Assembly: GCA_021234155.1 (NCBI GenBank)
Contig: JAJEKV010000030.1
Location: 1,812,333-1,876,332, forward strand
Direction of reading: 5' to 3'
DNA length: 64,000 nt
Source of the DNA: Isoetes taiwanensis
Taxonomy: Eukaryota; Streptophyta; Lycopodiopsida; Isoetales; Isoetaceae
In this document: positions 2,642 to 45,261 of the stretch, piece by piece
Layout of the letters: each line of letters starts with the position of its first letter
Position numbering within the stretch: the first letter of the stretch is position 1
Notes under the pieces: generated by a model
What the model saw: the letters and a program-made list of their open reading frames with translations, nothing else
The model's database searches: none
What the model was told of the DNA's origin: nothing
Program-made: the position numbers and the translations under genes

Positions 2642-2670
2642 GGGTCTAAGTTAGATATTGGGGTACAAAA
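2642..2670 (+). repeat. Element A left terminal inverted repeat
   Basis: The first 29 bases of element A match the reverse complement of 15590-15618 exactly. The opening GGGT and the AAG/AG spacing resemble the terminus of element B, which starts GGGTAAAAGAAAG. Confidence 0.92.
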
Positions 2671-2993
2671 GCACCCGTCTGGACGCGCTACTTTTCCTGC
2701 TTGGTCCGCTGTGCTTGGAGGTGCTTGGAGAGCGGGAACGCGATGATCCGTTTTTAGCAAATTGCTTCCGGATCGATGACATGGCTACCCGCAAAATCAA
2801 ATCCGGTACAGAATCAATTTGGCGGGGTTGTTGTGAGATGGCGTGGAGAGTGAATAGGATTTGGCTATGGCGGGAAGCATGATCCGGTGTTGTACCCCTG
2901 AACAGAATTTTCTTTGTGCAGCACGATTTCTCTGTACAACACAATTCTCTGTACAACACGATTCTAAATGGATCAATCAGCCATCAGATTTAG

Positions 2994-3525
2994 ATGAAGA
3001 AAAGCGACTTCAAATTTTCCGGGAAATTCAAGCCGAGAGAAGAAGGCAGGGAGAAAGAAAATATCCAGCCTCAAGTTGACAGCGGCTTGAGTGCGAGAAG
3101 GCTTCAAGAATTGTCCAAGAGTTTGGACGATTATTTCAATAATATCACAAAACCTTTGAAAGAAGGGGATAAGGCACTGGTGGTGCACAGATTTGTGAAG
3201 AGAGTGAGGAAGAAATTGCTACTGGAGGTGGATTTTGTTGATCATGATCAAAGCAAGATCATGAAGAATATAATTAGAAATGTTCAAGAGACACTCAATC
3301 AGCAAAAGAAAGTAAGGAAGACATATATAATGCAAGCAAGAAAGTCCACATTGCAAATGGTATCTTCAACAGCAAACAAAACCAACCAGTCTGCAGTTGC
3401 ACGCCTCCTTCATGTATCAAGAAAATCTGTTATTGCAGCAACCAGAAGAAGAGTAATGGCAGAACAAGAATGTGGTCCGTGGTCAATGTTTTCAAGGAAA
3501 AAGAGATCAGATGCAATAACCCGGT
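2994..3525 (+). CDS. Element A transposase gene, N-terminal exon
   Basis: An open frame of 177 codons, rich in Lys and Arg, starts at the ATG of 2994. It contains SGLSARRLQELSKSLDDYF, then a basic helical region, then SAVARLLHVSRKSVIAATRR, which looks like a helix-turn-helix ('AVARLL-VSRKSV'). A splice donor (CCCG|GTGAGG) ends it near 3523. A further short coding segment at about 3586-3660 (VTKDGERIDHPIQLLEIS) is likely the next exon. Element B carries a shorter counterpart on its minus strand (31938-31650). The role is inferred: DNA binding by the transposase. I do not recognise it as a named domain. Confidence 0.6.
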
Positions 3526-3754
3526 GAGGTTAAAATTACATTTTACAAGTTAAGACCCGAGAAAACACAAGAATCTCACCATACAGGAAGCATGTGAGAA
3601 AGTTTGTTACAAAAGATGGTGAAAGAATTGATCATCCAATACAACTGCTTGAAATTTCTTAGGTAATTATTATACTTTATATGTTTTACCGCTTGTTCTG
3701 CTTTACTAGATTGCCGCTTTTAATTTTTTTTGGAACTTTGTATTTCTGCTTTGT

Positions 3755-3823
3755 TTCCTTTTTGAAGGCCATGTAAAATTGCAACTATAATAGTTGCAAT
3801 TTTACATGGCCTTCAAAAAGGAA
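3755..3823. repeat. 69-bp near-perfect palindrome (34-bp arms, 1-nt centre)
   Basis: The arms 3755-3788 and 3790-3823 are exact reverse complements around A3789, with the core GCAACTATAATAGTTGC. The right arm is the beginning of the next transposase exon (reading MAFKKEF); the left arm is its inverted copy in the preceding intron. A transcript would fold into a long hairpin next to the splice acceptor. Confidence 0.95.
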
Positions 3824-5617
3824 TTCAATGAAATGAAGATTTCCAAAAGCACATTTGAATTCTTTGAAGCCATCTTTTGTGTGGCGTTTAAAAGAAAGAG
3901 AGACACATTCTTTGCCAATATCACATGCACTTTGAGTATGTGATGCAAGCACTCAACAAAATCAGAACAGATCCAAATGGAGTGCACAAAGAATGCAATT
4001 GTAATTGTGCTGTTTGTGGTGATGGTAACTTCTGTAGTGCCAAGAACCATGTTTATAAATCCACTAGTGATTTTTGGAGGCAAATGGTCTGCTCTAAAGA
4101 AGAAGATGAAGAATGGCACAAACATCAATGTCTGCAGTTGGCATGCAAAGATTGTGGGCTGAAAAGGTACTCTTAAGTTTGTCTCTTCAATGCTATGATG
4201 TTTAAAGATATTACCGTCAGTAACTTTAATTGTGGTGTTATAAACAGGTTTGCTTTTTGTCCTAAGGAGAAGATGGAAACTGATTACAAGGTGGAGTGGA
4301 AACAGTTTGAAAAGGTATTCTATTTGGCTTAATTAAATTGTGCTCGTGTAACATGCTTTTTAAACAAACTGCAAACTGACAGAAATGTTCATGGTCTGAA
4401 ATCAGCAAGAAGTTGGATACATGAAGGAGACTACCAAGAAAAAAATGGGAGGGAGGAAACCAGCAAAAGTAACAAGACTTGCATACAAGAACGAGAGTCT
4501 GCCCCAGTTCATGAAGCATGCTTCCAAGACAATGGTACAATTTGTCGCACACAATTATATGGCACACTGGCAGGCAAAGCAATTCAGGACGTGTTTGGAT
4601 ACCTTTCCTGAAGATGCAATTGTCTCTGTAATTGACTTTGCTGAAAATTACAGTTTTAAAATTCAGAGGGAGGCACAATCTTGCCAGCGGCACCGCGGAC
4701 CCGGGCCTCAATTCGGTTCATATCACATATAGACATGCAACCCAAGCTGAGATAGAGGAGATGGAAGTTAAGGAGGCAGAGCAAAGAGAAGAAGAGCGAG
4801 ATAAGCAGAAAAGAAAGAAGAAGACAAGTCAAGAAACCATCAGCACTAATCAGAGGAGAATTATAAAGGAAGTGCACTTTTATATTTCAGATGACAGGGA
4901 GCATAGCACTGAGTTTGTACAATATTGCTTGAAAGTACATGCTGACTGGCTTAGAGCATAGAACATTGAGTACAAGAAACATATTTTTTGGAGTGATGGT
5001 TGCACATCCCAGTTTAAAGGAGCAAGGCCTTTCTGGTATTTAGGAAGGAACTATGTGTGTAGTGAAGGAATTGAGTATGAGTGGAATTTCTTTGCCAGTT
5101 CTCATGGCAAAGGAGAACATGATGGACAAGGTGCAATATTGAAAAGGGTTTTGGCAAGAGAGCAATTGAAGTATGAGGCCTGGAAATTGGATCGTGTCAA
5201 AGATATTGTGGATTTCATGAACTGGTACATAATGAACAATCCACCAGACCCTCATATAAGAAGGTAAATTCTTGTTTTTTCTTAGATTTGAAGTTGCATG
5301 AATCTGTTTTATATTGCAGGTTCTTTTGGCATATTGATCCCCAAAGTGTAGACAAATCTGAAAGGAAGGAGTGGAGAACACTATGTGGGAGCTCTAAACT
5401 TCATTGCATCAGACCATGTGACAAAAAGAACCCTGCAAAAGTTGCTTACAGGTGCCTCTCTTGCTATTGTTCTTATTGCTTTCATGGTAAAATGGATGAT
5501 TGCACGAACAAAGCACGTTTGGGAGCATGGCTCACAGCAGAACTGAAACCAAAGATGAATTCTCACAAGGCACCCAAAATTATAACACTGCATGGTTTTT
5601 CCCATGGTTATGACTAG
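3804..5617 (+). pseudogene. Element A transposase core (DDE-like), interrupted
   Basis: Coding pieces in order: FKKEFNEMKISKS (3809 onward); a Cys-rich block with CNCNCAVCG (about 3985); an exon after an intron with FCPKEKMETDYKVEW (4257 onward); a Lys-rich stretch; IDFAENYSFKI (Asp codon 4634-4636); VHITYRHATQAE; VHFYISDDREH; FWSDGCTSQFKG (Asp codon 4995-4997); SSHGKGEHDGQG (about 5100-5133); and a Cys-rich tail with CLSCYCSYC after an intron at 5265-5320. Two Asp motifs plus the acidic HGKGEHDG motif suggest a DDE/DDD nuclease. The frame shifts near 4680 (between the first Asp motif and VHITYRHA), and an in-frame TAG (4959-4961) precedes the second Asp motif, so the copy is broken. Element B carries the same motifs in the same order. 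I recognise the family as one spread through eukaryotic transposons, but I cannot fix its name. Confidence 0.75.
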
Positions 5618-6061
5618 AAAACTATTCTAGAAAACCAATGCATGTTTGTGGGTTGATATCATTAAAAACCATATGTGACTAAACTAATGGGTTCTCTTGT
5701 AAGGTTTGTTATGATGGTATTATGACATGGTAATTGCAAATAGTTTCTTTGTAGAGTTTGTCAAAGTGGTATTACATGTTGGTAAGTTGATGTGGTACAT
5801 TATAGTGTTTAAGGGTATGGCTTGTGCATGTGGTATAACATGATGGTTGTGGATGTAGTTTAATATAGTGTTGTTATGGATGTGGTTTAATATAGTGCTC
5901 AATTTATGTGAAAATATAATGTGGTTGATTGTTGTGGTATACTAGCATGGCTAAATGTCATGGTAAATGCACATGGTTCACAATGCATTAGATGCAAATT
6001 ATGATTATTTATAGTAATTGTTTGTCCTAAATGTGTATGGTTTTGTTATGTATTAGCTTCA

Positions 6062-6235
6062 TGTTTATCATTAATAAACCAGTATGATAACCAACAATGT
6101 TTTGTTGTTTGAAGCATTTCATGTTTAATAATGTTCTGTTGTTTGAAGCATTTCATATTTAATAATGATAGCATTTCATGTTTAATAATGATAGCTAACA
6201 ACGTTTTGTTGTTTGAAGCATTTCACGTTTTGTAA
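6062..6235. repeat. Short tandem repeats around TTGTTGTTTGAAGCATTTCA
   Basis: The motif recurs three times, with 'ATGTTTAATAATG' units between, in an AT-rich stretch. Copies differ by a few bases. Confidence 0.8.
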
Positions 6236-6324
6236 ACTGAAACTCTTAAAGACTGTGAATGGTTTCTTTTATATATTATAGTACGTATTCCAACTATGTC
6301 ACTAGTCCTCAATAGCAACACAAA

Positions 6325-6362
6325 TCAGGGAGCAAGGGGATTTGAACCCCCATTCCAAAACT
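6325..6362 (-). other. tRNA-like T-arm (B-box-like) without a full tRNA
   Basis: On the minus strand GGGGGTTCAAATCCCC forms a 5-bp stem with a 7-base loop, like a tRNA T arm and the Pol III B box. No matching 5' acceptor strand, D arm or anticodon arm is found at the right distance, so this is at most a tRNA-derived repeat fragment. Confidence 0.3.
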
Positions 6363-8535
6363 CATAAACAAAACAATGACAAATCTATTTTTAAAAAGAA
6401 ATATGTACAATGTAAATTTAGATCAAATAGCAAACATCCAGCATAGGAAGAAAGTAATGACCTTGCATTTTTATTTAAGTACTCAAACATCGAACATATA
6501 TTAATACAGCTCAAATGGATCACATATTAATCCAACTTAAACAGATCACCTCTATTTGGATCACCTCGAATTCCCTGTGGTGATGCGACAAGGCCCCGCA
6601 GATTCCACCTACTGTATTCAAAGTGGAGATTCAAAAATTACATTCCACGCATATTCCTAGCTTTGAACTACCCTTGATGCAGACGGTGTTTGCCTATTGC
6701 CATAGCTGGAAGAGTAGAAAAGAGAGAAAATTGTGTGTCAAAAAACAAGAGTCTGGCTTAGCGTTGTAGTAAAATAGGGCGTCAATGAAACTTTACCAGA
6801 CCTGCTGACTTTAGATGTATGTGCTCCTATTGGTTGACAATGGCATTTGAAGCATTCCACTCTGACCACAAGCTACCAAGCATTATTCGTAGTCTGTCTC
6901 CAGATGCCGACCAAGATCTCCTGCATAACAAACAAAGCAACCCTGCTTATAAACATTAGCTAAATAAACGGCATAACAAATAGAGCTAGACTTGGAAGGT
7001 CCTACCTGCCTCAATCAGCATGAGCTTCCATTTGCCAAAAGGGAAGAACCAAATAGCAAGAGCATTAAGGATAACCTCAAGGTAAAGTTGCAGATCGATT
7101 TAGCAAGCCCAAAGTAGTTGCATCACAAAATGAGGCCCATTTACAGTTGGATTATCAAACATGAATAAGATGCAAGCCAAGTGAGAATGAACACTTCTAT
7201 CCAGTATAATGCATAATCTGTCATTGCAGCGGAATGTTCTTGATAACCTATTGATGACTGCAACCAGTGCAGATTGAATGCATGCAGTTAAAGAAGTACT
7301 AGAAACCAAGGCTATAAAGCATTCTCATTTCAGGAAAAAATATGTCCTAGATAGGATGGGCTAACATGAATTTTTCCCCTAACCTTCTTCTGATATGCTA
7401 GCCTTCTTCTGATACAGTCAGCTCCTGGTGGAGATATTCACGCATCAAAGCTTGAGTCAAAAGAAAAGGTTTTGAAGCCTTTGATACATATGAGAAAGAT
7501 CAGGATCATATCTCAGGCTTGATATTATTCCCATACCTCGACAACCAAGCAAGCATCTTTCCTTTCCTCGCACCTATGTTGCTTTAAACCCGAGGTAAAT
7601 CAAAAAACTCAACTCCGTGAAAGGGATATTTTAATCCACTTACTATTTGTCATTTCATTTTAGTTCAATGAAAGAAATGTATGAGCCGTGAAAACGACAT
7701 AAAAGGACGTAATAAAATAAAGAGGAGCAAGCCAAACATACCTCTCAGTAGTCATGCGACACACGAAAAGAAACAATAAACAATGAAGAACAAATGAAAC
7801 AAAATAATCCATCTCGGCTTGAGGCGGCAATGAAATCCATCTCTCGGGCTGAAGCCGTGAAATGAAAAATTCGCCGCAGGTTCCGCTTTGCTTGCTCAAG
7901 ACGCCGGGGAGCTCAAGGTTTTACTTGCCCCGATGGTCGGAGGCGCCTCAATGAGGGTTTGCCGCCTCATTCCCTTTGAAGTCGCTTCCCCCCTTTTTCA
8001 TAGAGAGCAGTAGATCACAATCGTAGCCGTTGATGACTTCCATATTTGGATTTTAGACTAGTTGAATTTGTTTTCACGCATTTTTCAAAATTTAAGCATG
8101 TAGTTGTTTGAGTGGTAACCTAGGTGTATTTACTTAAGCTCGGATTTCCACTAACGATTTCCACTAGCTGTATTTTACCTAAGCTCGGATTTCAAAATGA
8201 TGTGGCCTCATAGTTTCAAGGCACTAACATAAATTTGTTTGAAATTGCTGCATCTTCTACTTTAAAAACTTCCAATAAGCCAACCACAAAACCACTAATT
8301 AGCTATTTTTAACCGTGCATTCTTCCTATTGTCGTTGAAATTTTATTCTACCAGGCAATATTGGCCGAAAGCATGAAAATTCCACGACAACAACAAAAAT
8401 AATACCAGTTATGCAATGCAGCTACCACAACTAAAGAGGGATGAACGACAAAATGTGACGTGGGGATTTCCTATTGGCTTCTATTTTAAATTAAAATTGC
8501 CACTGCCGAAGCTGAGGAGAAAACTTGTTCTAATT

Positions 8536-9150
8536 CTAAATCATAGCCAAAGGACAATAAAACCTAGATAACATTGCCTTATTGAAACGAAATCCCTGCT
8601 CCAGTCTAATCCCGATGAAAACAAGACTCGACATATTTGCTGCAAATAAAAAATCCACCGTACAGCCGCATGCATGTAAGCAGCCTCCAACCTTGGTGAT
8701 GATCTGTATCAAGCTTGACTTAAGGCCATCCATCTTCTGGAGCCTGTCAATATAACATTTAGCAGCCAGCAGAAACATCGCCAGATCCTCTCATCTATCT
8801 GGAGATGCATTCTCAGAAGAACAAGAAAAAGGTCCGTACCATAGATTAGCTCCAGCCGCTATGGCGATGGCGTTGGTCGTAGAGTCTGTAGCCGATAGGA
8901 CTAGGCTCCAGCTGTTACACATTAAACTCAACGTCTCAATATAATGATGCCTCTCCTGCATTGCCGCCATAAGAGAAAAAAACAAAGGATCGATATGCAT
9001 AATTTTAGTTTTTACCGGTTGGGTTTTTTCATTGTCTCTCGTGTGTATACTAGGTGGAGATATGAGAAGCGCCGTATATATCGGACGCCAACATGTTATA
9101 GCCACGGGCATATCCGTGGTATATCCATGTCTTTGACATGTTATAGCCAC
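8536..9150 (-). pseudogene. Unrecognised ~200-codon frame with one in-frame stop
   Basis: Two open stretches on the minus strand (9150-8791 and 8778-8536) are in the same frame and separated by a single TGA. The upper part reads SLMAAMQERHHYIETLSLM, the lower SLIQIITKVGGCLHACGC. Composition is protein-like in the middle, but I recognise no family. It may be a decayed host gene caught in the block, or chance. Confidence 0.25.
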
Positions 9151-11270
9151 GCCAAAAAAAAATTACACGGCGTTTTTGTGGACTTAGCGGATTTTTTGCC
9201 ATTTAAGGCTGGCTATAACATGCCCACGTTCGACATTTACCGCGATGGGAGGTATGCGTCCAGATTCTCGTTATTATTTATCCCTACAAGAAATTTATCG
9301 CGATGGCCAAGCCCGCTACAAACATTTCTTTAGTTCAGACCCGTGCAATTGAACTCAGTATTATTTGACAATGCAATGCTTGCTTAAAAAACAAAGGAAG
9401 GCAAGTTCACAAGCGAACACATTCATTGTTTATACAAAGAAAGTTAGAAGCAAATAAAATGAATTAAAAGATGCCACATACATTTTGTGAGGGTTATAAA
9501 CAATAAGAATGATTCTATGTGCAACTGCAAATGAATCTTGAGGATTAAGAACAATAAGAATGAATCTTTGTACAACTACAAATGAAGCTTGAGGATTATA
9601 AACAATTACAATTACAAATGAATCTTTTCACAAATGCAAACCTCCAATGCAAGGAGTATAGAACTCTAACTCTAGAAGTTAGAATTTAGTCAGCGTAATG
9701 GGCTTAAACCCCAATTACACTTAGATTGAGTCAAAGCCCATCATGTTGCATATAAGGATGAGCTAAATTACATTGTTGTTTGGACAAATATCTGAGCTTG
9801 ATCATATTTCCATGTCCATACATATCACCTTCCAGAATGTGCCATCAAAATCTAGAGTTTAGAGCAAACAGAAGGAGCGAAAGAGATAGAATGGCATCGC
9901 CTATTGCATGCATCATTTTAACGTACCTCCCTCGCTCATGCCTGTAAACAAACAAATTGTACCATTTATAGGTCACCTTCCAGAATGTGCCATCAAAATT
10001 TAGAGTTTAGAGCAGACAGAAGAAGCGAAAGAGATAGAATGGCATCGTCTATTGCATGCATATGGACTCTACAACTTTTTCTTTCTAAATTTAGATGGCT
10101 ACATAAATAAACTCAATTAATAGTCCTTTATTCGGATTAGTTCATATTCAGGGAGGCTTCATCTCTAATCTGATTGTGCAAATAAACAACAAATTGAATC
10201 ATATTGAATTGAGCATAGGGTGAGGGTATATGGTTAAATAACTCATCTATAAAGACCCGTACCTTACTGGCTCGCAAGACAGAATAAAACATTTGAGCAC
10301 ATAAAGGCCATTTGTACCATGTCATGCGCATCATTCCTGTTGTTTTCTAGGCTGGCCCCTGATCTTTTTAAACGTACCTCCCTCGCTCATGGTTTTTGTT
10401 CTTGCCATTTTTCTTCCAATTGTGATATCCTAAGCATTTTTTGCTCATGAAGCATGTTAGACCTAGGATTTCCTGTCTGAAGCCTTATAAACATTGTTTT
10501 CCATGAGTTATTCTTGCATGATAGTTTTTTCTTCTCTCAATTATCATTTTCTTTGCTTGGCTCTTGCTTTCAAGAGTTAAGCTCTGCTGTGTTGCTCAAA
10601 AATTGAAAGATGATTTGGTGTGCGAAGCAAAGCTACATTTGTGAATTTCGTCTTAAGAATGGCCTACATCATAAAAGCCCCATCCGGAAGGCACCCTTAA
10701 TGCCCAACCAAAGCTCAGTTTATGGAGGTTCTTCAGAAGGCTGAGCTAGATCAGAGTTTCACAAAAAAAAAAAACATATATCTTCCTTTTGTGTTTTCCT
10801 CTGGATTTAACATAAGACTCTACGGCCAGTGTTCCTGAAATGCAATAATTACATTCCACTCTCTAAGTTTCCAAAAATATATAAGTGCGCCATTTTTAAA
10901 ATGGAAGAGAGATGTATCAATGTTTATATAATCAACAACTTTTGGAACTTTTACCACAATGCACTGAACAGATATTGTGCCGTAGTCAAAAGTGGTGCTT
11001 CAATCTGGTTAAACTTCTGAATCAATCTATATTACCACATCTACTTGCAGATGTGCCTGAAAAAGAAAGAAATGTCAAATGAAAGAAAGAATACTTCTTT
11101 TGCAAAGATGAACACACATGTGTTCTTTACAAAGAGTTTGAACTATGAATTACAAATTACAAAAGACACCTTTTGTATTTTCTTATACATCGGTTTGCTT
11201 GATATTTGAAAAAAGTCTAACGTGCTTCGGAGGCTTCGAACAACAAAAATTACAAAAGATCATATCTATC
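9151..11270. repeat. Non-coding stretch with local duplications
   Basis: No coding domain is recognised. Units with GAGGATTATAAACAAT recur at about 9490-9620. A ~100-bp segment (ACCTTCCAGAATGTGCCATC to GCATGCAT) is present twice, at about 9828-9914 and 9975-10060. The string AACGTACCTCCCTCGCTCATG occurs at 9920-9940 and again at 10370-10390, suggesting a local segmental duplication. Confidence 0.65.
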
Positions 11271-11742
11271 GTGGTTTGATAGTGGTTAATTAAGACAATT
11301 TTTGGGTGTGCTTATGAGTAACCACTATGGATGGCTACATGCTTTTAGGTGATAGCTATGAGAACTATGACAAGTAACTCGATAGTGAAACTATGCTATA
11401 AACCACAACCATTTTATAGAATACAGTGATAATAGAAGACTAGCATAAATAACCACCCCATGACATTAGAAAAGCATGCCATAAACTAATTTAACTTTGT
11501 GGCAATAGAAAATCTACTAAACAACCATTGCTACCTTTATTGTGGTGTTGAAAAACCATGCTACAAACCATTGTCCATTTAATAACCCTTCTCGAACCCT
11601 TATATGTTAGAAAACAAACATGAATGACCACTATTTTTTGCTAGAAATCATGTAATAAACTAATATGGATTCTAATAAACCACGCTATACCAAAAAATCA
11701 ACATAAATAACCATGTACTAGATATTAAAACCACTATGTTAT

Positions 11743-12261
11743 GTGGTTTTGATTAAGAATGAAATTTTTGGCATAAGAAAATGCATAGTGGTTTTTCAGT
11801 GGTTTATTATAGTGGTTAAAGTTTTGGGTGCCTTGTCTGTTGCTGGAGAAACATCCACAGCAATTAGTCAGGGGGAAGAAGAAGAAGATGAAGAAGTAGA
11901 TTACCTTAGTTCTCTTGTAGAAGTTGGAGATAACTTTGCTGTAAATGCACATCCAGAAGATGATGAGGGAGTTGACTTTTATGTTCTTAGGTGTACAGAG
12001 ACTAAACACACATTGTTAGATACATATGAAGATGCTTGGGGTACTGCATTTGGTGTAGGAGAAGTTATAGTTTCTGGCCATTACTACAAGCAAACAGATG
12101 CACTCCAATTTGAGTTACTATTGGACAAGCCAGTTGCTAGTTTGTATAGCCACCTTGTCAGACATGTGAAGTTTGATATGGAGAATCTTGGTAACAACAG
12201 TTTCAAGATGAGTGAAGAGACATGCCAAAAAGTTATGGCATCCCTTCCAGTAGAGTGCTAA
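11743..12261 (+). CDS. Element A transposase gene, C-terminal exon
   Basis: A 172-codon open frame. An acidic linker (GEEEEDEEVDYLSSL) is followed by VEVGDNFAVNAHPEDDEGVD, then FYVLRCTE, GEVIVSGHYYKQTD and a C-terminal segment with SHLVRHVKFDME. Element B has the same segment, decayed, right after its transposase core (29160-28800, minus: LQIGDIFASFAAPG, VIAGHYYQ, KGHVRHI), which is why I assign it here. I cannot name the fold. It resembles the small beta-barrel (BAH/Tudor-like) layout only loosely. The first ~25 codons come from the AACCA-rich block and are probably intron. Confidence 0.55.
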   Translation: MVLIKNEIFGIRKCIVVFQWFIIVVKVLGALSVAGETSTAISQGEEEEDEEVDYLSSLVEVGDNFAVNAHPEDDEGVDFYVLRCTETKHTLLDTYEDAWGTAFGVGEVIVSGHYYKQTDALQFELLLDKPVASLYSHLVRHVKFDMENLGNNSFKMSEETCQKVMASLPVEC

Positions 12262-12733
12262 TTCTGCTGTCCGTTTTTTCTGCTTTTGCTTCGAAGAAGC
12301 AGAAGTTGAGTTTTTAGATGTACACTGGCTCTTTCCTGCCATATTCTTTCTTATACTCTTTATAATTCGTTATCAATGAAAACTAACAAATTCTTTGCTG
12401 TACAAATGTTCCTTGTCCTCACAGCTTTAAAAGAAAAGCTGCTAGGTCTGCTTTTCTTACTTATGCTTTGTCTGCTTACATGCTTTCTGTTTTCAGTTAA
12501 CTATTACAGACTTGATGAACTTCTGGAAAACAGACTTCATGGACATGGAAAACAGATTGCGAGTTTACAAATGAACAAAATGATGATCTGCACAAGTGTA
12601 GGTAAATGCCTGAAACCTTGAATTTACATTAATATCCGTTCTGTTACAAAAGTGTACAGCTATGTACTCATATACAGTCTTCACAAAGAAACAGCTGTTA
12701 TATCTTAAGTTACATCTTAAGTTACATGAATTT
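12262..12733. other. Gap between the two convergent genes of element A
   Basis: The 3' ends of the + strand transposase gene and the − strand accessory gene face each other across this AT-rich 470-bp stretch. It probably contains both 3' UTRs. No coding domain is seen. Confidence 0.6.
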
Positions 12734-13626: not shown

Positions 13627-13801
13627 CTGCAACATTCATAAAAAAAGAAACTTAAACATCAACATGACTTAAACATGAATTAAAAGAAGTCATTAATTAA
13701 AGAAAACAGAGTTACAATATTCAAACAATGTTCTCAAACAACATAAAATAATTAAAACAGTATTTAACATACACTGCAATATGTTATGTTCTGAAACTAA
13801 C

Positions 13802-14201: not shown

Positions 14202-14274
14202 CTGCTTAGAACACAAATCAATTTATATGAGATTAAATTAATTAAAACACAAATAAGAAATATCAAAGTCTTAC

Positions 14275-15180: not shown

Positions 15181-15199
15181 AACGTAAAACTCTTCGAGA

Positions 15200-15602: not shown

Positions 15603-15618
15603 TATCTAACTTAGACCC
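15590..15618 (-). repeat. Element A right terminal inverted repeat
   Basis: Exact reverse complement of 2642-2670. The following tctt (15619-15622) repeats the 4 bp before the left end. Confidence 0.92.
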
Positions 15619-15622
15619 TCTT

Positions 15623-17538: not shown

Positions 17539-17553
17539 AAAAAAAATGCCCTT

Positions 17554-20177: not shown

Positions 20178-20190
20178 TTCCTCCTTCAGC
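20178..20190 (-). other. Copia polypurine tract
   Basis: On the minus strand GCTGAAGGAGGAA directly precedes the 3' LTR, the expected place for plus-strand priming. Confidence 0.7.
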
Positions 20191-20201
20191 TTATATTCAT
20201 A

Positions 20202-21851: not shown

Positions 21852-21860
21852 CTTAGCTTC

Positions 21861-22859: not shown

Positions 22860-23211
22860 ATATGAAGTGTGCTTGAGTTTTGTTGCAGCATATCCAACCT
22901 TGTTTAATCAATTGTTTGAGATTTTTGTTGTTTGTATGAGCAAGTCGATTATGCCATAGTTCTAACCCTTCTTCTGTTAATAGTATTGATGCTCACTACA
23001 TTTTCATTGCAAATAAATTTCCAAATCTGGTAGCACGAAATTTCAATTCATCCTTGAGATAAATATTACATTGCAATGAGTCAAAAGTGACCTCAGAGCC
23101 TAGATCAACCAGTTGACTAACAAAATCAAATTCTTGATTATTGTAGGCACACACAACACATTTTGTATATCTACAATGTCACCATTTAAATCTTCAAGCT
23201 GCAGCAAACCC

Positions 23212-23451
23212 TTACTGCTGAATTTTTTGTAGAGCTCCATTTCCAACTTGTATATTTCTTGAACTTGCATTGGTAGGATTCTTCAGTAGATCAGTGGACT
23301 GCACTACTGATCTTTCAGCTCCACTATCAACTACCATATAATCATCAAACTTGTTAGATTCAGCTTTATCAAGAATAGCAAATTCATTAAGTACCTCATC
23401 ATCTTCATCTTCAGAATTTGCTTTAGATTTTTCTCCATGTTCTTCAGCCAC
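23212..23451 (-). pseudogene. Copia aspartic protease region
   Basis: YMVVDSGAERSVVQS carries the D-S-G active site in a frame that follows an acidic linker (NSEDEDDEVLNEFAILDKAE). It is cut from gag and from the following pol region by stops or frameshifts (for example 22870-23200 has several). Confidence 0.8.
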
Positions 23452-23487
23452 AAATGCTTTTTCATAACTTCTTCCTCTTCCTCTATT

Positions 23488-24426
23488 TTAGGATCTGCCA
23501 CCTCTGCTGTCAGGTCTCCCTCTTCCCCTTGCATAACTCTTTGGAGTTGGACATTTTGAGGCTACATGACCTCTTCCACCACATGTGTAACAGTTAAACT
23601 CTTTTTTCAACTTAGGACATTCATTCTTGTAGTGACCTTGCTCATGGCAATGATAGCAAGTCACTTTCTTCTTAACAACTAATATCTCAGGATCATTAGA
23701 TTGTTGCCTTGATATTTTCTTTTGTTCCCATTCTGTTCTCAAACAATTTTCTGCTTCCTCTCTTGTCTTACAAGTATTTCTAATAAATAAGGCAAGATTT
23801 TCATTATCCACTGTTCTAGATATTTGCAGAATTTGGCTTCTGTCTGATACATTCACATTTGCCCCGGCAAGATCAGCTATGAGGTTATCAAACCTATCAA
23901 AGAACCCTGAGACATCTTCATCCTCTGCTAATTTTAACCCTCTTAATTCATTTTCAAGTAAATCAATTTGAGAGGATGTTTTATCTTCATAATGTTTAAG
24001 CATATATTTCCACATATCTCGTGGACTCGAGCCCCTTAATTTCAACCTAATTGTAGGACTTACCTTGCAAGATATGATTCCTTGAGCCTCCTTTGCTTTT
24101 GCATACAAGGATTTTCCTCCTGAGCTGCTTCCTCCTGTTGTACCTCCTGTACCTGCACTTTGAGAAGTCCTACTTCCCCCTGCTGTGCCACCTGCACCTT
24201 CATTTTGAGAAGTCTGCCCTGCACCTGCAGCATTAGTTGAGCTAGCTGTGTTAGAGCCAGATCTCGTCAGTATTCCTGCAGTAACATTTCCTTGGGGATC
24301 CACCAAATCCCACAAATCTTCTACTTCCAAGATGTGTACTATAGCATCCTTCCAAATCTGGAAACCTGGACCTCCAGCATACACATCCACAGTGTTGAGC
24401 AAGCTTGCTCCAAATCTGCTAGACAT
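23488..24426 (-). CDS. Copia gag
   Basis: The frame is open further upstream into the LTR, but the likely start is the ATG at 24426 (MSSRFGASLLN), downstream of the primer-binding site. A capsid-like region (WKDAIVHILEVEDLWDLVDP ... MWKYMLKHYEDKTSSQIDLL ... LKLAEDEDVSGFFDRFDNL) is split by a Gly/Ser/Thr-rich insert of about 60 residues. Two CCHC zinc knuckles, CYHCHEQGHYKNEC and CYTCGGRGHVASKC, sit near the end, followed by an RG-rich tail. The two knuckles and the low-complexity insert are typical variations for plant copia gag. Confidence 0.92.
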   Translation of the reverse strand: MSSRFGASLLNTVDVYAGGPGFQIWKDAIVHILEVEDLWDLVDPQGNVTAGILTRSGSNTASSTNAAGAGQTSQNEGAGGTAGGSRTSQSAGTGGTTGGSSSGGKSLYAKAKEAQGIISCKVSPTIRLKLRGSSPRDMWKYMLKHYEDKTSSQIDLLENELRGLKLAEDEDVSGFFDRFDNLIADLAGANVNVSDRSQILQISRTVDNENLALFIRNTCKTREEAENCLRTEWEQKKISRQQSNDPEILVVKKKVTCYHCHEQGHYKNECPKLKKEFNCYTCGGRGHVASKCPTPKSYARGRGRPDSRGGRS

Positions 24427-24433
24427 ATTACTA

Positions 24434-24445
24434 GCTCTGATACCA
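24434..24445 (-). promoter_or_regulatory. Copia primer-binding site (initiator Met tRNA)
   Basis: On the minus strand TGGTATCAGAGC starts two bases after the 5' LTR; this is the common plant LTR-element primer site for initiator methionine tRNA. Confidence 0.93.
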
Positions 24446-24446
24446 C

Positions 24447-25209
24447 TGTTAGGAATTGACACACAAACTATAATGACCTTTGCAAATTACTTGTCTAGCA
24501 AGATTTATTCACAAAAATTTTCTTCACATGCACTAGGGAGCCACAAGATGGTCACTTATCCCTTGTGCTTGACAAATAAAATAAAACTCTTAAGTTCTTA
24601 AAGCAATTCAAACTTTAAGTCATGAGAATGAAAATATTAAACCATTGAACAGTTACTGTAGCAGGGTCATTTACTCGAACACTGTTCCTGCTTTGACCGA
24701 TATTTGTATATCGGATTCTTCACCAAAAACTTTGATTCTGCTTCATCCACCGTGTATATATCCTCTGCTATCTTCATTTCTTATATAATGCAGACTTCCG
24801 GCGGTTAAGGCATCATTCATGCTTTCCAATCTGAGGCTGTTGTCTATTGAACTATATCCCACAGGCTTGGCAAAGGAAATCTGCTACTTTCGATTTATAC
24901 CACATACCTGCTTTAGGAAACAAGTCCTTTAACCATTAACCAATTTTCGCCCCTAATTTGTAAAGCACATAAAGCACTTATATGCATAAAGCACTTATAT
25001 GCATTTGCTTTCATCTTCAACTGCTTGCATTTGAACAATACCCCATAAGTGAAAATACTGTCATCATTGTAACCAAACTCCCTGCATCTAGTAAGTATGT
25101 TGTAGTCCTATGCAAACCTACTGCCACTGCTTCTCATAGGTTGCTTTGTAGTCAAACAAATATTCACTGCCACTGCTTCTCATGAATATAAGATGACTAT
25201 TTTCTAACA
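24447..25209 (-). repeat. Copia 5' LTR
   Basis: 763 bp, the partner of 19415-20177. The minus-strand transcript would start here. Differences seen: T for G, A for C and T for C at three sites relative to the other LTR. Confidence 0.95.
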
Positions 25210-25214
25210 TACAT

Positions 25215-26600
25215 TACATGTACATTCCATCTGGATAAATAGCTGTTTACATGTGTATGTACTCAAAGTACTTCAATGTAGATCAGTTCTAGTAATATGT
25301 ACAGCTATTGATATGTATAGAACAGTTAGAGACTGATTAGTTTGAGACCCGATATCCGATGTTATGTGATTTATTTTCGTGAGCTTCAAAGTGCCAAAAA
25401 CTACCGAGCGAAATTACACCACGATCCAGGTCGCTTGTTTTCAAATTCTATTTGCATTGTGTCAGAGGAAGCAATTTCTTATTCTTGGTTCGGTTTTCAC
25501 AGTTTTGGAGGTTCCAAAGAAAATTGAGGTGCAAGATGTAGCCGAGGGAAAGAAAGCAGTGATTGAAGGAAAAAGCAAAATCACTATTCCTCAAGGGTGA
25601 TACAGGTTGAGGAGGCTGGCACCAGTGTCTGCATGGTGACATTCCGTTATGACGAGGAACTCGAGAGATTGAGGGAGCAGGCTAAGGCCACATCTTCAAA
25701 AAGTAAAGGCAAAGCAGCCGAAAAATGTGACTCCAAAGAAGAACTCCACGCCTAAAAATTGAAGCAAGAGAAACAATTAAGAAAGCATTTTATTTCCCGA
25801 GGTACAAAGATTTGAGAAATCCATGACATCCTATGTTTACAGTCCTAATGAAGAGGAATATTCGAAGCATCAAGATGTAGAGCGGGATACTTTTAAGTTT
25901 GTGTCAAATATTGCTTCCGACATAGCAAAGGACGCTGAATTTCCCCGACAATGAGAAATCGTGGAGAGGTTGCGACGAGGATTCCGGACCTAATAAGAAT
26001 CGAAAGTGAGGAAACCAAAAAAGTAGGGAAGGAAATGGATAATCGACTCAGAAAACAAAGATCATTAGAGCGTAAGAATGATCTCTATAGGTAACTTGAT
26101 CTACATTTCTTACATTTTTTTACATCTAGTATCCAAGTTAAAAACTTTAAAATAATATGGATAGTAGTAGACTAATGTAGATGATTTGTGTAAATGTACC
26201 GGTCATTGAACCCGCATCGCAGCTCAATACACAGCCATACGATGCCTTGCTGAACCGAATGATGAAGCTCAAGAAGGCAAGGATTTTCCCGTGATCTTTG
26301 CCCGAAATGGAGTGTTATTTATTTGAACAAGATGTCTTTGGACATGGATGTGGGGAAATTTTCCAACCCAAGATGTGGATATGTATGCCGTCTTTGGACT
26401 TTGAACTTGTTCATTTGTATGTGTAAGTCAAGTTAGTAATTGTATCCTTTTTCAACTTGTTATAGGTACCGCAGCTCTCGTGTTCCGGATGATAAGAAGG
26501 CCGACGTCCGTTCTTCCCACCGGACAGCTTCATGGAATTTGCAAAGATGGGCCAAGGCAAGTTTAAAAAGATAAATCTATGGCAGCCTCCGGAAAGCGTG
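25215..26600 (+). pseudogene. Element B accessory gene, middle part (unrecognised)
   Basis: Continuation of the accessory gene after the copia element. Coding-like scraps include VPKKIEVQDVAEGKKAVIEG, then ELERLREQAKATSSKSKGKA (Lys-rich helix) and, after a TGTA-rich intron-like stretch (26090-26200), FMEFAKMGQGKFKKINLWQ at about 26535. Stops are frequent. I do not recognise a family. By position it corresponds to the linker between RING and phosphatase in element A, but it is longer. Confidence 0.4.
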
Positions 26601-27110
26601 GAAGAGATATTGTAAAGGTAGCTCTTCTGAGGGGATAAATTGGCTGAAGTGCGTATGGATCATGATTCCAATGCTATGTAGAGTTATTCTTGAACATCAC
26701 ACTTTGGCCATCTTCAACATGGCACTTACTAAGAGTAAGAACACCATCAACATTCAGATCTTCAATTCTGCCGAGGACATTGACGTTGACATGCTTGCAC
26801 TTAAGAGGTATTTTGTATTTCACATCTCCTTTTATTAATATTGAGTAGATTGGATACCATGTTAGCGACTTCTTTCATTCATTTGCTACAAAATAGATCC
26901 GTCTTTTTGCGGCTCCATATCCTCACTATGGCACGCGGTTGTGTCGAAAGTGTCCCACTTTTTGAAGCATGGACAAAATCCTTCACCGGTTGTGAAGATT
27001 CATAAGTGTCCACGGCCGAAAAGATGGGGATTCATGTGGCCTCTATGTTGCGGCTTATATGCGAAGTTTGTAGACACAATCGTGTGTGGTAAAACTACCA
27101 ATGTGAGTGT
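26600..27110 (+). pseudogene. ULP1-like (C48) cysteine protease remnant in element B
   Basis: One frame reads INWLKCVWIMIPMLCRV, then HHTLAIFNMALTKSKNTINI and QIFNSAED, which fits the ULP1 pattern 'V.IP....HW.L..I....I..(Y/F)(D/N)S' with His and Asn/Asp. After an intron-like gap (about 26810-26897) comes VVKIHKCPRPK and, one frame over, DGDSCGLYVAAY, the expected catalytic Cys motif (D-x-C-G-x-Y/F-V). The pieces are separated by frameshifts. ULP1 proteases remove SUMO-like modifiers and occur in several plant transposon groups. No counterpart is visible in element A. Confidence 0.5.
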
Positions 27111-27469
27111 CTCACTTCTTTTGTCTTGCAAAACAAATGGTTTTAATACTTATTATGTAAGTATTGTTGTCACATTTGCAGATTACCCGAAACTGGTTCT
27201 TGACAAAGTATGCATCTGATCGTCGTGATGTTCTCACCCGAGCACTACTTCAGGAGTTAGACCACATTCACTTCGCACCCGAAACTATTAGACCACCTGG
27301 TACTAATAAATGTGGGAGAAACAGCCTCTCCCTATTGTCAATGCTAAACACTATTTGATTATAAAATACACATTTTTTTCATTGAATTTGAATACAATCT
27401 CTTTTATTCAACTCCACCATACTTTATTGATAAATTGCATGTTCTTTCATATCGGGGTGTACCAAAAGG

Positions 27470-28165
27470 TTGATAGTGTTTGATATCAATAATGTTTTGG
27501 CAAAACAAATACATAGGACTTTGGTATCGGATGATCACTAGTTGGAAATTATGACATAATAGGCAAGAAAGTGTTGTTTTAAGGCCCCACCTAGACGAAA
27601 TTCCTCGAATTTGTATTTGAACACTTTGAAGTAGAAATATGGTCATCAATAGCTCCATGGAACCTATCAAGAGTAGTGGATAAAATCTTCACAATGACGC
27701 AGAGATAAAGGGACTTAAGGTTCACCTTTGATGGAAGCCACCGCTTGAAGCTGCCTTTCCGGATTGCGCAAGTGAAGATAAACCTTTTGTATCTGAAGCC
27801 AATTGAGTTTATATACGAGAAGTATCCGGCAGAATGACAAAGAACACACTAATAGTAGACGACTCAGAGTACAAGATGCTCTTCATTCCCAAATCGAAAA
27901 TTGCATATGCCCACCTTCATGGCGGGGAAAGTGATGTTGAAGACACAGTCTCTTGACACTTCAAAACCATAGCTAGAGGGTTTGTTGATAGCACCAGACC
28001 TGCAACAGTATGTGAAGCAGAATCCTTTACGCAATCCATCCGATGTACTAACAACAGCTGTTTGGAGGCAAATGCTTTCAGAGGGCTACAGGGACAGAGA
28101 TGGCATGTCCAGGCTATGGACAAGCTGCAAGAAAGTAACATATTAAAACAGCGAAATAGTATGTA
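27470..28165 (+). pseudogene. FCP1/NIF-like phosphatase remnant in element B
   Basis: Homologous to the element A phosphatase piece by piece, over several frames. Motif I reads IVFDINNVLAKQIH (Asp codon 27482-27484; the Gly of DINGV is Asn). VVLRPHLDEI follows, then FEHFEVEIWSSIAPWNL (about 27610-27660) and TLIVDDSEYKMLF (VDDS codons 27856-27867). IARGFVDS comes near the end. Frameshifts and stops (for example taa after TMTQR) break it at several places. It shows that the phosphatase was already part of the common ancestor of A and B. Confidence 0.75.
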
Positions 28166-28799
28166 ATCGGCTTCACATCGGTGTGACCAGATTTTGAATG
28201 TAAATTAATGTTAACATAAAACATGAACAACGGACTTGTATATATTGGCATCATATCCGATATGACCAAAGTTGTATATCTTGTGATATGTAATACAAGA
28301 GTTTTTGTCTCCATACATGTTCCACTTTCTCGCTTTGTTTCATGAATCAAAAGAAAAGCTATTGATATCCATTATAACGAACAAGTTCACAGACTAGTTT
28401 AACTTCTTCATGCAACAATTGATGAACATTTTGTACTTTCTGATATACATTGTGCTTGGAAACAGAAGATATTGTGTGATACTGAAATTTAAGTATCAAA
28501 ATGCACTTCAGATTAAAAAATAAGTAAATAAGAAAAACTTGCGTCGACTAGTTTTCTCAACATAACAATGCACTAGTTTAACTTCTTCATGCAACAATTG
28601 ATAAACATTTTGTACTTTCGATATACATTTTGCTTGGTCACGTAAGATATTCGTGATCTTACCAAATTTAAGTATCAAAATGCACTTGATATTAAAAAAT
28701 AATTAAATAACAAAAAAACTTACAGCAATCGACTAGTTTTCTCAACATAACAGAAGATAATGGCAAATATGAAAGTTCCTTTGTACAGAACTTAGTCAT
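28166..28799. repeat. Gap between the convergent genes of element B, with a ~178-bp tandem duplication
   Basis: Units at about 28394-28571 and 28572-28753 share TAGTTTAACTTCTTCATGCA, GTATCAAAATGCACTT and CGACTAGTTTTCTCAACATA, with scattered differences. No coding domain is seen. Confidence 0.8.
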
Positions 28800-31700
28800 G
28801 TGCACTCAACAATCTCGTGTAGGCTTGATATAAGCATGTCATGCACCTCTCGTGGTGATCATATATGCCGCACGTGCCCCTTCAACTTATGCTTGACCTC
28901 TTTGCATCGTGAACTTTGCTCCAATTACGATTCAGGCGGTACCAATACTATTTTGTCATCCAAAGAACTTGTACTTGTGCTTTGTGCCTTGTAGCGTTTG
29001 ATAGTAATGACCAGCTATAACCCCTGTCACCAGCAAGCATTCTATTTCCATAGTCGTCAATCACATCTTCTCAAGAATATGCATCTCCTTCACGCATAGG
29101 AGGACGGTATGGAACATTTTCATGATTCCCTGGGGCAGCAAAAGATGCAAATATGTCTCCAATTTGGAGTACATTGATAGTTCTTGCTCATCACCGCATA
29201 AAACCAACTAGCTCTTCTTGTTCGGCCGACTTTGGGCGAACTAGGCTCGGTTGTGCAGCTTCCACGCACCACAATGCTCGAGATTCTCACATTCTCCCCA
29301 TCTGAAATTCAAGCAAGCATTGCAAAAACATGACATGGATCTATTCATGACAAGTGTTGGGTCACCGGATTAATAGCGCATACACAAATGTATAGCTAGA
29401 GTACCGTGCAATGTCTCACAATCGACGAGGGTCCCCTGTTAATGTCTTACGCTATCACCTCCCATATGATGACTCGCCCATTTTGCACTTCTTTTGTCTC
29501 AAAGAAAGTGCAAGCAGAGTTGGCACCCAAAATCGGAACACCATTCTCTTTCCTTTGCTCGTCTGCTAGGAACCTTTTCTCCAAAGCAGCCTGCCCATCA
29601 TGTTCTCCTTTTCCATGGCCTGAGCCAAAATAATTCCACTGCATCCTAATTTTATACCTGTTATAATATTGGGCCACATTCAAATAAAAGGCTCGAGAAC
29701 ACTTAAACTGAACAGCACACCCATCAGACCACATGACATGGTATTTGATGTGGCCAAAACCTTTTTGCATCATCCAAATATGGTGCTTCTTGAGTGCAGC
29801 CTGAACAAAGAAAGCATCATGCTTCATAACATCGGAAACATACAAATGAACAGTTTTTTTCAGCTCGCCATTGACTTTCATCATGGTTATATGCACCAGA
29901 ATAGTTATCTGGTCATTGTTCCAATGCTCGGACTGAACCTCCCTGAATGGCTGCAAAGTGTAGTTCTCTGCAAAGTCCATTACTGACAAAACGTAATCAT
30001 CCCTCAAATTTTGCAATCGATTTCTGAATTGTTTGCTCACGCCAACTTGTGAAAAAGTTGTGAATAGTGAACTTTGTAAGGTGCTGAAACATCTTGTCAA
30101 GCAATGTACCTGGAGTCCCGCTTTCAGTAACAAGCTTCAACCTCCTTGAAGTGCCAGCTTTGGAAGGTTCATTCACGTACTTGTAAACTTGCCATTCAAT
30201 GTTCTCATTCTGCGACTCTTTCTCCTTAGGACAGATTTGAATATTTTTAGTGCCACAGCTTCGCACTCTCCCTTGACACCTGATCCAAACTATGCCACTC
30301 TTTCGCCTTCCTTATCACGCACCATAGCTCTCCACATAGCACCAACATTTTGAAATGTTTTAGAAGGAGCTTGGCGGGCGCCATTGTTCTCATCATCTGC
30401 TGCACAAACACCACAAGAACATGTACAGTTGGCATGAAATTTGCTCCTCGGGGCCGCTTAAAAGCTTTCTGTAGATAGATCAGCTTGTTCATGCTTCACG
30501 CAGGCGACATGTGTTCCTCTCTTTCAACCTTCTCACACATGTAGGCTTAAGCAGCTCGAACTTTCGATGCTAATCTTCACTTCAGGATATTCATCTTTGA
30601 ACATCTCATACAATTCACTCTGCAAGGAAAAAAACGGCATGTATAAGTAAGATATAAATTAGAACTACTTACGAATTCAAAGATGTTGCAGACATTGCAT
30701 TAGTTCTATGGCACTCAGATCATGATTTGATATACATTCAACTACTATATTACACCATCATACATACCCTGTACATGATATGTATAAATGTATAAATAAT
30801 GTACTCCAAAGAGTTCCAGATGTACATAAAAAAACTCAATATGTAACCAGGTCACAGACAGTATCACTGTATTACAGATGTATGTATTTCATACTTTTCT
30901 TATGGAAGGAAGTATACATTTAAATACTTTTATGTATCACCCTATCTTTAAAGACTATTTTGAGATCAGGAAGGCTTAAAATGTACTATAATGTACTTGG
31001 GAACTACAAAAAGCAAGACTATAATAACACAGCCTGACTTTCAACACATTTTCTGCCTTATGCCACATTGGATGTAACTGGAAGTACATCCAAGTACTTT
31101 TCCTGTTAAACATAGCTCATTCAAGCCTCCAAGTGTAAAAATATAATTATTGTAGTTGGATGTACTACAATGTATATCGATACATCCCTTACATGGAATG
31201 CAAATAGGATTACTAAACTTATCCAGGATGCACATAAGCTAGCTTCTATCAAGCTTGCAAGAAAGAGGATTACAAGACTTAAAACTGACCTGGGGCATGT
31301 CCAAAAACCGGATTGAAGTGTCCTTTTCTTCCCGACATCCCCTGTACTTTGGAGAAGTTTTTGTGTGGGTTAACCAAAACTCATTTACCAACCTGCTTGG
31401 TTGATTCCTAAGCATGTCCGCCTGGTTGCCTTCTGCCGGTGGGCCACATATTAGCACCTGATAATGACATCCGTTTTCTTCTAATTGCAGCTTTTGTGAG
31501 GTTTCTTGCTTGCACTTGAAGAATTCTGGAGGCTACTCCTTTTTGTCCGAAGTTTTCCATTCTCACCAACAATCATTGATAACAGGAATGCTTAGTCGCT
31601 AATTTATCATTGCTATTTGCTTGTTTCACTTCCCTCAAGGACCTTCACGGATATTTTTAGCATAGTATCCTTCAGAATTGCTTGCACCGGATTTCCAATG

Positions 31701-31938
31701 GCGTGGTTCAAAAAAGAAGTGCAGCCTTTCATCCCAGGTTTTTCATCGCTAAAGCTCTCCTTTGCACAGGACGTAAATCTTGAACCTGATCATATATAAA
31801 TTTACAAATTTCATCAATCTTACGCTTCATTTTCTTTGTCACATTCCCGATATTGCAATCTTCTTGCGCCATTTCTGTTCCTTCGTTGTTCATCATGGTT
31901 CTTGCGTGGTTTAGGGTTAGCTGGAGGAATTCTGGCAA
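28800..31938 (-). pseudogene. Element B transposase (DDE-like), decayed
   Basis: On the minus strand, from right to left: a basic helical N-terminus (NVTKKMKRKIDEICKFIYDQ, 31938-31729); PVQAILKDTMLKISVKVLEG; FWLTHTKTSPKYRGC; a TGTA-rich intron-like gap (30660-31230); ELYEMFKDEYPEVKISIE; the Cys-rich block CTCSCGVCA (about 30410); ICPKEKESQNENIEW; VMDFAENYTLQPF (29959-29982); VHLYVSDVMKHDAF; VMWSDGCAVQFK (29711-29733); SGHGKGEHDGQA (29590-29617); and the C-terminal domain LQIGDIFASFAAPG ... VIAGHYYQ ... HVRHI (29160-28800). All motifs match element A in order, with several stops and frame changes. Confidence 0.75.
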
Positions 31939-32157
31939 GAAGGAGGGAAGGGCGAAGTTTTAGCCAGAAAGTGGGAAATTCTCCTAACGTTCAGGCGTTT
32001 CTTGGAGTGGTTACAGCGGCGGGAATTGAAATCTGCTTCATGATTGCGTTTTAATTGACGTGGCAAGTAGTTCCGAAAAAAAAGATTCCATAATATAGCT
32101 ATTATGTACATACTGAAAAAACGGTTATGTATTTGAAATGTGATACATCTCTTACTC

Positions 32158-32175
32158 TACATTTGGCCAAATGTA
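32158..32175. repeat. Subterminal palindrome next to the right TIR of element B
   Basis: TACATTTGGCCAAATGTA is a perfect 18-bp palindrome abutting the right TIR. It shares the TACATT/AATGTA arms with the palindrome beside the left TIR. Confidence 0.85.
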
Positions 32176-32199
32176 AGACACCCTAGCTTTCTTTTACCC
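32176..32199 (-). repeat. Element B right terminal inverted repeat
   Basis: Reverse complement of 17515-17538 over 24 bases. The following catc duplicates the 4 bp before the left end. Confidence 0.9.
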
Positions 32200-45260: not shown

Positions 45261-45261
45261 C

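Follow-up and report, generated by a model that had tools for sequence, protein, structure and literature searches.

The window, that is, the whole 64,000-nucleotide stretch of Isoetes taiwanensis DNA analysed here, contains two large elements, A (12,977 bp, 2642-15618) and B (14,685 bp, 17515-32199). Each is bounded by perfect terminal inverted repeats (TIRs; 29/29 matching positions in A, 24/24 in B) and flanked by a 4-bp target duplication (TCTT and CATC, respectively) that extends to 5 bp in neither case (Table 1). These coordinates, repeats and duplications, first described in an earlier note, were exact on re-check, and the transposase motifs DFAENY, WSDGC and HGKGEHDG were found again in both elements. 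In A as in B, the transposase gene converges tail to tail with an accessory gene. Both genes of both elements contain apparent stops or frame changes, with the exception of the FCP1 frame of A, which is open over 305 aa.

Table 1. Parts of elements A and B, with positions in the window
Feature	Position	Strand	Basis
A target duplication, TCTT	2638-2641 (left), 15619-15622 (right)		exact sequence match
A left TIR, 29 bp	2642-2670	+	417 exact genome matches, reversed control 0
A transposase gene, broken	2994-12261	+	A-B alignment; frame changes and a stop read
A transposase, N-terminal piece	2994-3527	+	sequence reading, A-B alignment
A transposase, Cys-rich middle	about 3866-4173	+	A-B alignment
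A transposase, core with DFAENY, WSDGC, HGKGEHDG	4574-5171	+	motifs, A-B alignment
A transposase, second Cys region	5372-5569	+	A-B alignment
A-only stretch, ~6.3 kb, inside transposase gene	5563-11836		missing from L010, L013, L018, L020
A transposase, C-terminal domain	about 11902-12261	+	A-B alignment
A accessory gene, NIF/FCP1-like HAD domain (motif I DINGV), frame open over 305 aa	12737-13651	-	PF03031 E 5.9e-16
A accessory gene, acidic/basic linker with GRPSKK stretch	13797-14222	-	sequence reading; A-B similarity 5/200 shuffles
A accessory gene, RING-H2-like finger, one TGA inside	14548-14709 (approximate)	-	zf-RING_2 18.4 bits, E 0.0026
A accessory gene, coiled-coil-like stretch	14950-15200	-	by eye; present in 11/11 A copies
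A accessory gene, N-terminal part	15290-15560	-	A-B score 51, 0/200 shuffles; present in 11/11 A copies
A right TIR, 29 bp	15590-15618	-	exact sequence match
B target duplication, CATC	17511-17514 (left), 32200-32203 (right)		exact sequence match
B left TIR, 24 bp	17515-17538	+	298 exact genome matches, reversed control 0
B accessory gene, N-terminal part	18113-18318	+	0/200 shuffles against A
B accessory gene, coiled-coil-like stretch	18439-18780	+	by eye; likeness to A's not significant, 6/200 shuffles
Possible RING remnant of B	18879-18965 (approximate)	+	position transferred from L064; RING not established
Copia LTR retrotransposon in B accessory gene	19415-25209	-	LTRs 99.5% identical; flanking duplication TACAT
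B accessory gene, NIF/FCP1-like domain (motif I DINNV), interrupted by stops and frame changes	27464-28020	+	PF03031 E 7e-12 when read through
B transposase	28998-30551	-	motifs, A-B alignment
B transposase, middle	30551-30246	-	A-B alignment
B transposase, core	30136-29450	-	A-B alignment
B transposase, Cys region	29414-29262	-	A-B alignment
B transposase, C-terminal domain	29175-28998	-	A-B alignment
B right TIR, 24 bp	32176-32199	-	exact sequence match

Ends, copies and size

Among 66 pairs of perfect inverted 14-mers in the window with a spacing of 1-25 kb (overlapping pairs counted individually), a matching 4-bp duplication was found in two, which are A and B. The many further copies that had been expected exist: the 1.66-Gb host genome holds 417 exact matches to the A TIR and 298 to the B TIR, against none for the reversed controls. 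Exact ends and duplications, the pair scan and the genome matches together rule out chance as the origin of the repeats. Three other GGG-starting inverted pairs, with AATT and 168-540 bp apart, lie inside a palindromic repeat cluster (35879-36418). As proposed earlier, the 4-bp duplication is a family trait; it is kept in 13 of 19 fetched A-type TIR pairs, and is also seen at L064, a sister copy of B. None of the 13 A-type duplications is longer than 4 bp, palindromic or TTAA; they are 69% A+T, follow no common pattern and include some rich in GC, for example TCGG. The genome also contains an empty site for A, matching at 99% over 119 bp that span the junction, and two more at 84-86%.

Giant size, which the earlier note took for a family trait, is a property of these two copies and not of their families, since B holds a Copia element, missing from L064, and A holds a ~6.3-kb stretch without counterpart in four sisters. 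Natively giant families are ruled out by these two additions, by L064 and by the full A copies fetched (7.2-7.6 kb); B itself measures ~8.9 kb once the Copia insertion is subtracted. A search of the A-only stretch for a nested TIR element found none. The same note had named copies lacking the accessory gene, or with different ends, as counter-evidence. Copies of the former kind do occur among the A copies fetched: three measuring 271-273 bp and some of five measuring 2.2-4.3 kb. Their TIRs are unchanged, however, and they resemble products of internal deletion; different TIRs on one kind of transposase are already the situation of A and B.

A first look at the host genome, where the superfamily is abundant, gave 7,816 transposase-core and 5,415 FCP1-domain candidates, with relatedness judged for the 150 and 129, respectively, that were scored. 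An A TIR lies inside 12 kb of 24 of 27 FCP1 loci. A TIR-plus-duplication scan of fetched stretches L030-L063, which mostly end before an element end, found none. Two FCP1 matches in the genome stand at 41-42% identity.

The transposase

We compared A with B by frameshift-aware alignment, using 200 dinucleotide shuffles per part. The transposase cores are 47-53% identical. No shuffle (0/200) reached the score of the middle part (111, shuffle maximum 53), the Cys region (87, maximum 46) or the C-terminal domain (78, maximum 51). Similarity is weak or not significant at the N-terminus (14/200) and over the last 50 residues (166/200). The similarity between the transposase C-terminus and B 18528-18409 (1/200) was taken as chance because the C-terminal domain lies elsewhere in B (Table 1). 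The claim of one transposase kind accompanied by a shared convergent gene with a phosphatase-like domain stands, PF03031 being detected in both elements.

Three Asp residues are constant or nearly so among alignment rows with a letter (L062 numbering: D235, 46/46; D319, 48/48; D360, 44/46). We infer a DDE/D-type transposase whose catalytic D-D-D would be the Asp of DFAENY, WSDGC and HGKGxxDG. The E of HGKGEHDG was dropped as third catalytic residue, being present in 30/46 rows versus 44/46 for the later D. The predicted RNase H-like model has a pLDDT of 41, and none of its fold matches reached significance; the weak ones obtained were in part to RNase H-like proteins (RuvC, Argonaute, terminase nuclease), but many were to others. 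Sequence searches of the PDB yielded no significant match, and those of Pfam none above cut-off. Homologs occur in moss, Taxus and molluscs. With a few peptide patterns and tblastn, no relative was confirmed in viral contigs, phages, plasmids or bacterial genomes; the sole motif match, in the phage-like contig L001, is off frame and was rejected.

The Sola assignment proposed in the earlier note is a candidate one: in the published descriptions considered here, the 4-bp length of the duplication is the sole trait common to Sola and these elements. The transposase might instead represent an undescribed superfamily with 4-bp duplications, as the lack of a Pfam match above cut-off and duplications that are neither palindromic nor TTAA would allow. 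We consider this rather unlikely, given that homologs are widespread among eukaryotes and that described Sola elements offer parallels. Sola2 elements of social amoebae likewise have 4-bp duplications and an extra gene, with TIRs of 12-21 bp and, in one, a transposase of 888 aa; by description, their duplications are AT-rich, and they differ in that the extra gene is Fanzor1 (PMC3627910). In Ectocarpus, large Sola-1 elements are described in which an accessory gene occupies the opposite strand, among them the TIR transposon Sola1-1_Ec32. It differs, again by description, in its length of 21.5 kb and in an accessory protein that combines ParB-like domains with DNA methyltransferase domains; in the giant families of this alga, too, insertions are nested and transposases broken (PMC12477816).

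The accessory gene and its possible role

Judged by alignment, the accessory gene is homologous between families strongly in its FCP1-like part (score 160, shuffle maximum 54, 0/200) and modestly in its N-terminal part (score 51, maximum 44, 0/200), although the A-family N-terminal profile reaches only E 0.15 in L064. The RING (1/200, for a position that was subsequently discarded), the coiled coil (6/200) and the linker (5/200) are weak or not significant. PF03031 scores are 59 bits in A, 45.7 in B (read through) and 21.4 in the related stretch L061 (cut-off 21.8); the A domain scores below the cut-offs of TIGR02251 and TIGR02245, and its predicted structure has a pLDDT of 34. By reading, the RING-H2-like finger of A has all eight ligands (C-C-C-H-H-C-C-C), with a zf-RING_2 score under the cut-off of 27.3 bits. 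In L064 only the first part of a RING-like stretch is recognisable, just before the Copia site position (E 0.047; an unrelated place scores better, E 0.016). A candidate B RING at 26349-26466 (1/200) was dropped, as L064 places the RING-like stretch, itself not significant, just before that site. Hence, of the accessory parts reported earlier, the N-terminal and FCP1 parts hold as homologous between A and B, and the RING is recognisable by sequence in family A but not established in B.

Every accessory module is present in all 11 near-full A copies fetched (for the RING, the module and not its individual ligands was counted). In L061 the FCP1 domain and a transposase frame of 620 aa, ~50% identical to the B core, are arranged tail to tail. 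Of the stretches L060-L063, all four of them distant or B-like, two (L061 and L063) have FCP1 downstream and opposite; in L060 it lies upstream, on the strand of the transposase, and in L062 it was not found. It was not seen at E <1e-3 in 25 of 30 short stretches, which end 1.5 kb beyond the match.

In active phosphatases motif I reads D-x-D. Here it is D-x-N in A, B and all eight database relatives, and L061 reads EIQG; we therefore do not claim phosphatase activity for the accessory domain. All eight relatives combine PF03031 with a D-x-N-G motif I, and seven have a VDDS-type motif IV. The nearest include plant HAD proteins with a DLNG motif (Striga, Urochloa, Panicum), which differ in being only 31-36% identical and in having, by eye, no RING or coiled coil.

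Such relatives would suit a passive host cargo taken up through transduplication, possibly in two events involving related host HAD genes, as would the broken state of the present copies and the frequency of gene capture in plant transposons noted in a review (PMC13317346). However, between two A subfamilies dN/dS is 0.17-0.23 for FCP1 and 0.12-0.29 for the transposase core (up to 0.57 for RING and coiled-coil pieces). The FCP1 part of family A is under purifying selection about as strong as that on the transposase core, which argues against a passenger gene. The accessory modules in 11/11 A copies, a position and orientation of the gene that A, B and L061 share, and the N-terminal part common to A and B also count against cargo, which we regard as improbable. 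Because its gene shows the mark of natural selection, the accessory protein looks like a working helper, not idle cargo. dS between the subfamilies is 0.90-1.15 for FCP1 versus 0.47-0.67 for the transposase core, which leaves room for exchange among the subfamilies or for differing rates, and co-inheritance need not have been strict.

Overall, we think it likely that A and B belong to two TIR families of one cut-and-paste superfamily whose accessory protein would aid the element in trans, the putative helper role being drawn solely from selection and domain content. Movement of A and B would require proteins from other copies, because both genes look broken and the ends are intact. The protein could alternatively be a putative transposase subunit for end binding or nuclear import, comparable to that of Harbinger elements with two genes, instead of a factor directed against the host. 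The coiled-coil-like stretch and the GRPSKK stretch would fit this, as would the tail-to-tail layout, known from autonomous Harbinger elements (PMC12477816). We hold such a subunit to be possible, if somewhat doubtful.

We know of no RING or HAD modules in Harbinger-like subunits, which counts against that option. For a helper acting in trans, the mechanism we favour, though by itself rather unlikely, is that the RING-H2 would recruit a ubiquitin E2, while the HAD module, whose motif I has Asn in place of its usual second Asp, would bind a phosphorylated nuclear partner without cleaving it; a silencing or restraining host factor might thereby be marked or removed. VANDAL elements are of the MuDR kind. 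These plant DNA transposons carry a second protein, VANC, which counters silencing; VANC is a sequence-specific anti-silencing protein, the accessory protein here a putative helper (PMC5735166). Kaonashi MULEs likewise are plant DNA transposons with an added ubiquitin-like pathway gene, but this encodes an Ulp1 protease and the elements are non-TIR MULEs (PMC13317346). In the open-access papers searched, no transposon with this accessory gene was found. Speculatively, a plant lineage of a eukaryote-wide superfamily (new, or a deep Sola branch) may have turned a host-type HAD protein and a RING finger into a selected, ubiquitin-ligase-like counter-defence protein. Such a protein would disarm host control by means different from those of VANC and of the methyltransferases in algae. 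A transposon-borne selected gene with HAD and RING parts offers a way to study the response of plant DNA transposons to host control. Several transposase frames in the genome are open over 550-630 aa, which makes function testable.

Copies, insertion sites and native size

The earlier note had proposed a family of giant TIR transposons whose accessory gene carries RING-like and FCP1-like phosphatase parts, and the host assembly containing the window (1.66 Gb) does hold further copies. The TIRs of both elements, A and B, start with GGGT; exact genome matches number 417 for the A TIR and 298 for the B TIR (reversed controls, 0). We fetched 20 stretches, picked among the listed A-TIR matches that looked paired (11 around pairs 7.2-7.6 kb apart, 9 around closer pairs). 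A left-right TIR pair is present in 19 of the 20. Identical 4-bp duplications flank 13 of these 19 pairs, none of the 13 extending to 5 bp or being palindromic, and three of the remaining six show a one-base mismatch. The search for an empty site of A was also successful: contig C1031 has an element-free site that is 99% identical to the two flanks of A placed end to end (positions 58-176, including the junction at 100), and the flanks have two further matches at 84-86%.

The 11 A copies fetched are 7,153-7,562 bp long, and A's stretch at about 5563-11836 is missing from the four copies compared by blastn (L010, L013, L018 and L020). Element B is interrupted by a Copia element; its sister copy L064 (8,845 bp, duplication AGGT, 91% identical) runs uninterrupted across that point and is thus an empty site for the Copia insertion. 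Among listed matches, several B-type TIR pairs are spaced about 9.0-9.1 kb. Short A-type forms, five of 2.2-4.3 kb and three of 271-273 bp, have the TIRs in common and look like deletion derivatives that would need movement in trans. The smallest (L021-L023) are MITE-like, with A's exact TIRs and a 4-bp duplication in two of three.

Features of the window (window positions)
Feature	Position	Details
Element A	2642-15618	Perfect 29-bp TIR; TCTT flanking both ends
Hairpin in A	3755-3823	Perfect, long; within apparent intron of transposase gene; parts seen again in L010, L018 and L020
Element B	17515-32199	Perfect 24-bp TIR; CATC flanking both ends
Copia LTR retrotransposon in B	19415-25209	5,795 bp; duplication TACAT; young, LTRs 99.5% identical
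Repeat cluster	35592-36804	Diverged direct and palindromic repeats around GGGCGGGCGCCCAA
PIF1-like helicase fragment (weak)	39696-40058	
Two related protein kinase frames	42177-42941; 48419-50815	DNA 87% identical over about 430 bp
Myb/SANT-like frame	45205-45915	
LTR-element integrase	62236-63042	

Two genes common to both elements

In A and B alike, the transposase gene adjoins one TIR and the accessory gene enters from the other, tail to tail. Transposase core pieces are 47-53% identical between the two. In frameshift-aware alignments of A with B, none of 200 dinucleotide shuffles reached the score of FCP1 (160; shuffle maximum 54), the transposase middle (111; 53), Cys region (87; 46) and C-terminal domain (78; 51), or the accessory N-terminus (51; 44). 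Similarity is weak or non-significant for the accessory RING (1/200 shuffles), linker (5/200) and coiled coil (6/200), and for the N-terminus (14/200) and last stretch (166/200) of the transposase. Pfam finds PF03031 in A and in B independently; their FCP1 modules are identical at 55/175 positions (31%), with DIN, IWSS, KPI and VDDS in matching columns. All eight database relatives of the module, three of them named plant proteins, have PF03031 and motif I D-x-N-G, so the Asn is a trait held in common with these relatives and not damage.

In several transposase matches the reading frame stays open over 550-630 aa. The 629-aa frame of L062 has 71 homologs, among them proteins of the moss Ceratodon (32%), Taxus (28%), Mytilus (29%), the mollusc Liolophura (28%) and the thrips Frankliniella (27%). 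The first 47 of these were aligned with L062; counting rows with a letter, the constant acidic residues are the Asp of DFAENY (46/46), that of WSDGC (48/48) and that of HGKGxxDG (44/46). A Pfam search with the transposase gave nothing above cut-off. In its low-confidence predicted model (pLDDT 41), strands and helices follow one another as in RNase H-like folds, and the weak fold matches include RuvC, Argonaute and terminase nuclease alongside unrelated folds.

The accessory gene across the genome

N-terminus, coiled coil, RING and FCP1 were all detected in 11/11 A copies (phmmer, E < 1e-3), often as multiple fragments, since the copies are broken; in L014 a single 357-aa open frame spans coiled coil and RING. 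All exact A TIRs are listed for contigs C1-C912. Of the 27 FCP1 loci there that rank among the best A-like matches, 24 have such a TIR no more than 12 kb away, and 23 have one within 10 kb, versus 0.5% expected.

Thirty short stretches around the transposases closest to B's (L030-L059), each ending 1.5 kb beyond the match, yielded FCP1 pieces at E < 1e-3 in five (L033, L042, L043, L044 and L049) with a profile that included B and L061. Four longer stretches surround other transposases. L061 has FCP1 (E 1.9e-9) opposite a 620-aa transposase frame, tail to tail, and the B-like copy L063 has an FCP1 piece downstream. In L060 the piece lies upstream on the same strand and perhaps belongs to a neighbour; in L062 no FCP1 was found. 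Against A-family profiles, L064 gave FCP1 at E 3.8e-35, the N-terminus at E 0.15 and RING at E 0.047 (an unrelated place scoring better, E 0.016), with the coiled coil absent at its expected place. The accessory core common to both families is therefore FCP1, joined, with modest support, by the N-terminus. Two open 260-aa FCP1-like frames, 41-42% identical to A's (C1038:9253008-9253682 and C935:49616-50290), are perhaps a third accessory-gene lineage or host genes.

Selection and possible mechanism

Nei-Gojobori dN/dS was computed for a few pairs of deliberately chosen open frames. FCP1 compared between A-like and L015-like subfamilies gave 0.230, 0.224, 0.231, 0.195 and 0.173 (dS 0.90-1.15), and the transposase core 0.292, 0.256, 0.231 and 0.115 (dS 0.47-0.67). 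Values were 0.424 and 0.516 for the transposase C-terminus, 0.286, 0.462, 0.572, 0.508, 0.338 and 0.185 for RING or coiled-coil pieces, and 0.518 and 0.902 for recent FCP1 copies. With few pairs and chosen frames, this pattern indicates that the copy-producing lineage of family A held FCP1 under constraint, and that individual copies drift once inserted. Since dS of FCP1 and transposase is unequal, exchange between A subfamilies is possible.

The elements would move by cut and paste, with putative D-D-D catalysis by the transposase and a helper role for the accessory protein; the domain content of family A invites the guess that the latter is a ubiquitin ligase. Sola membership, inferred in the earlier note, is a lead. 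The precedent closest in plan to A and B is Ectocarpus Sola1-1_Ec32 (PMC12477816); other precedents are Sola2 elements bearing Fanzor (PMC3627910), VANC (PMC5735166) and Kaonashi (PMC13317346), and a table names a Physcomitrella Sola1 (PMC9033089).
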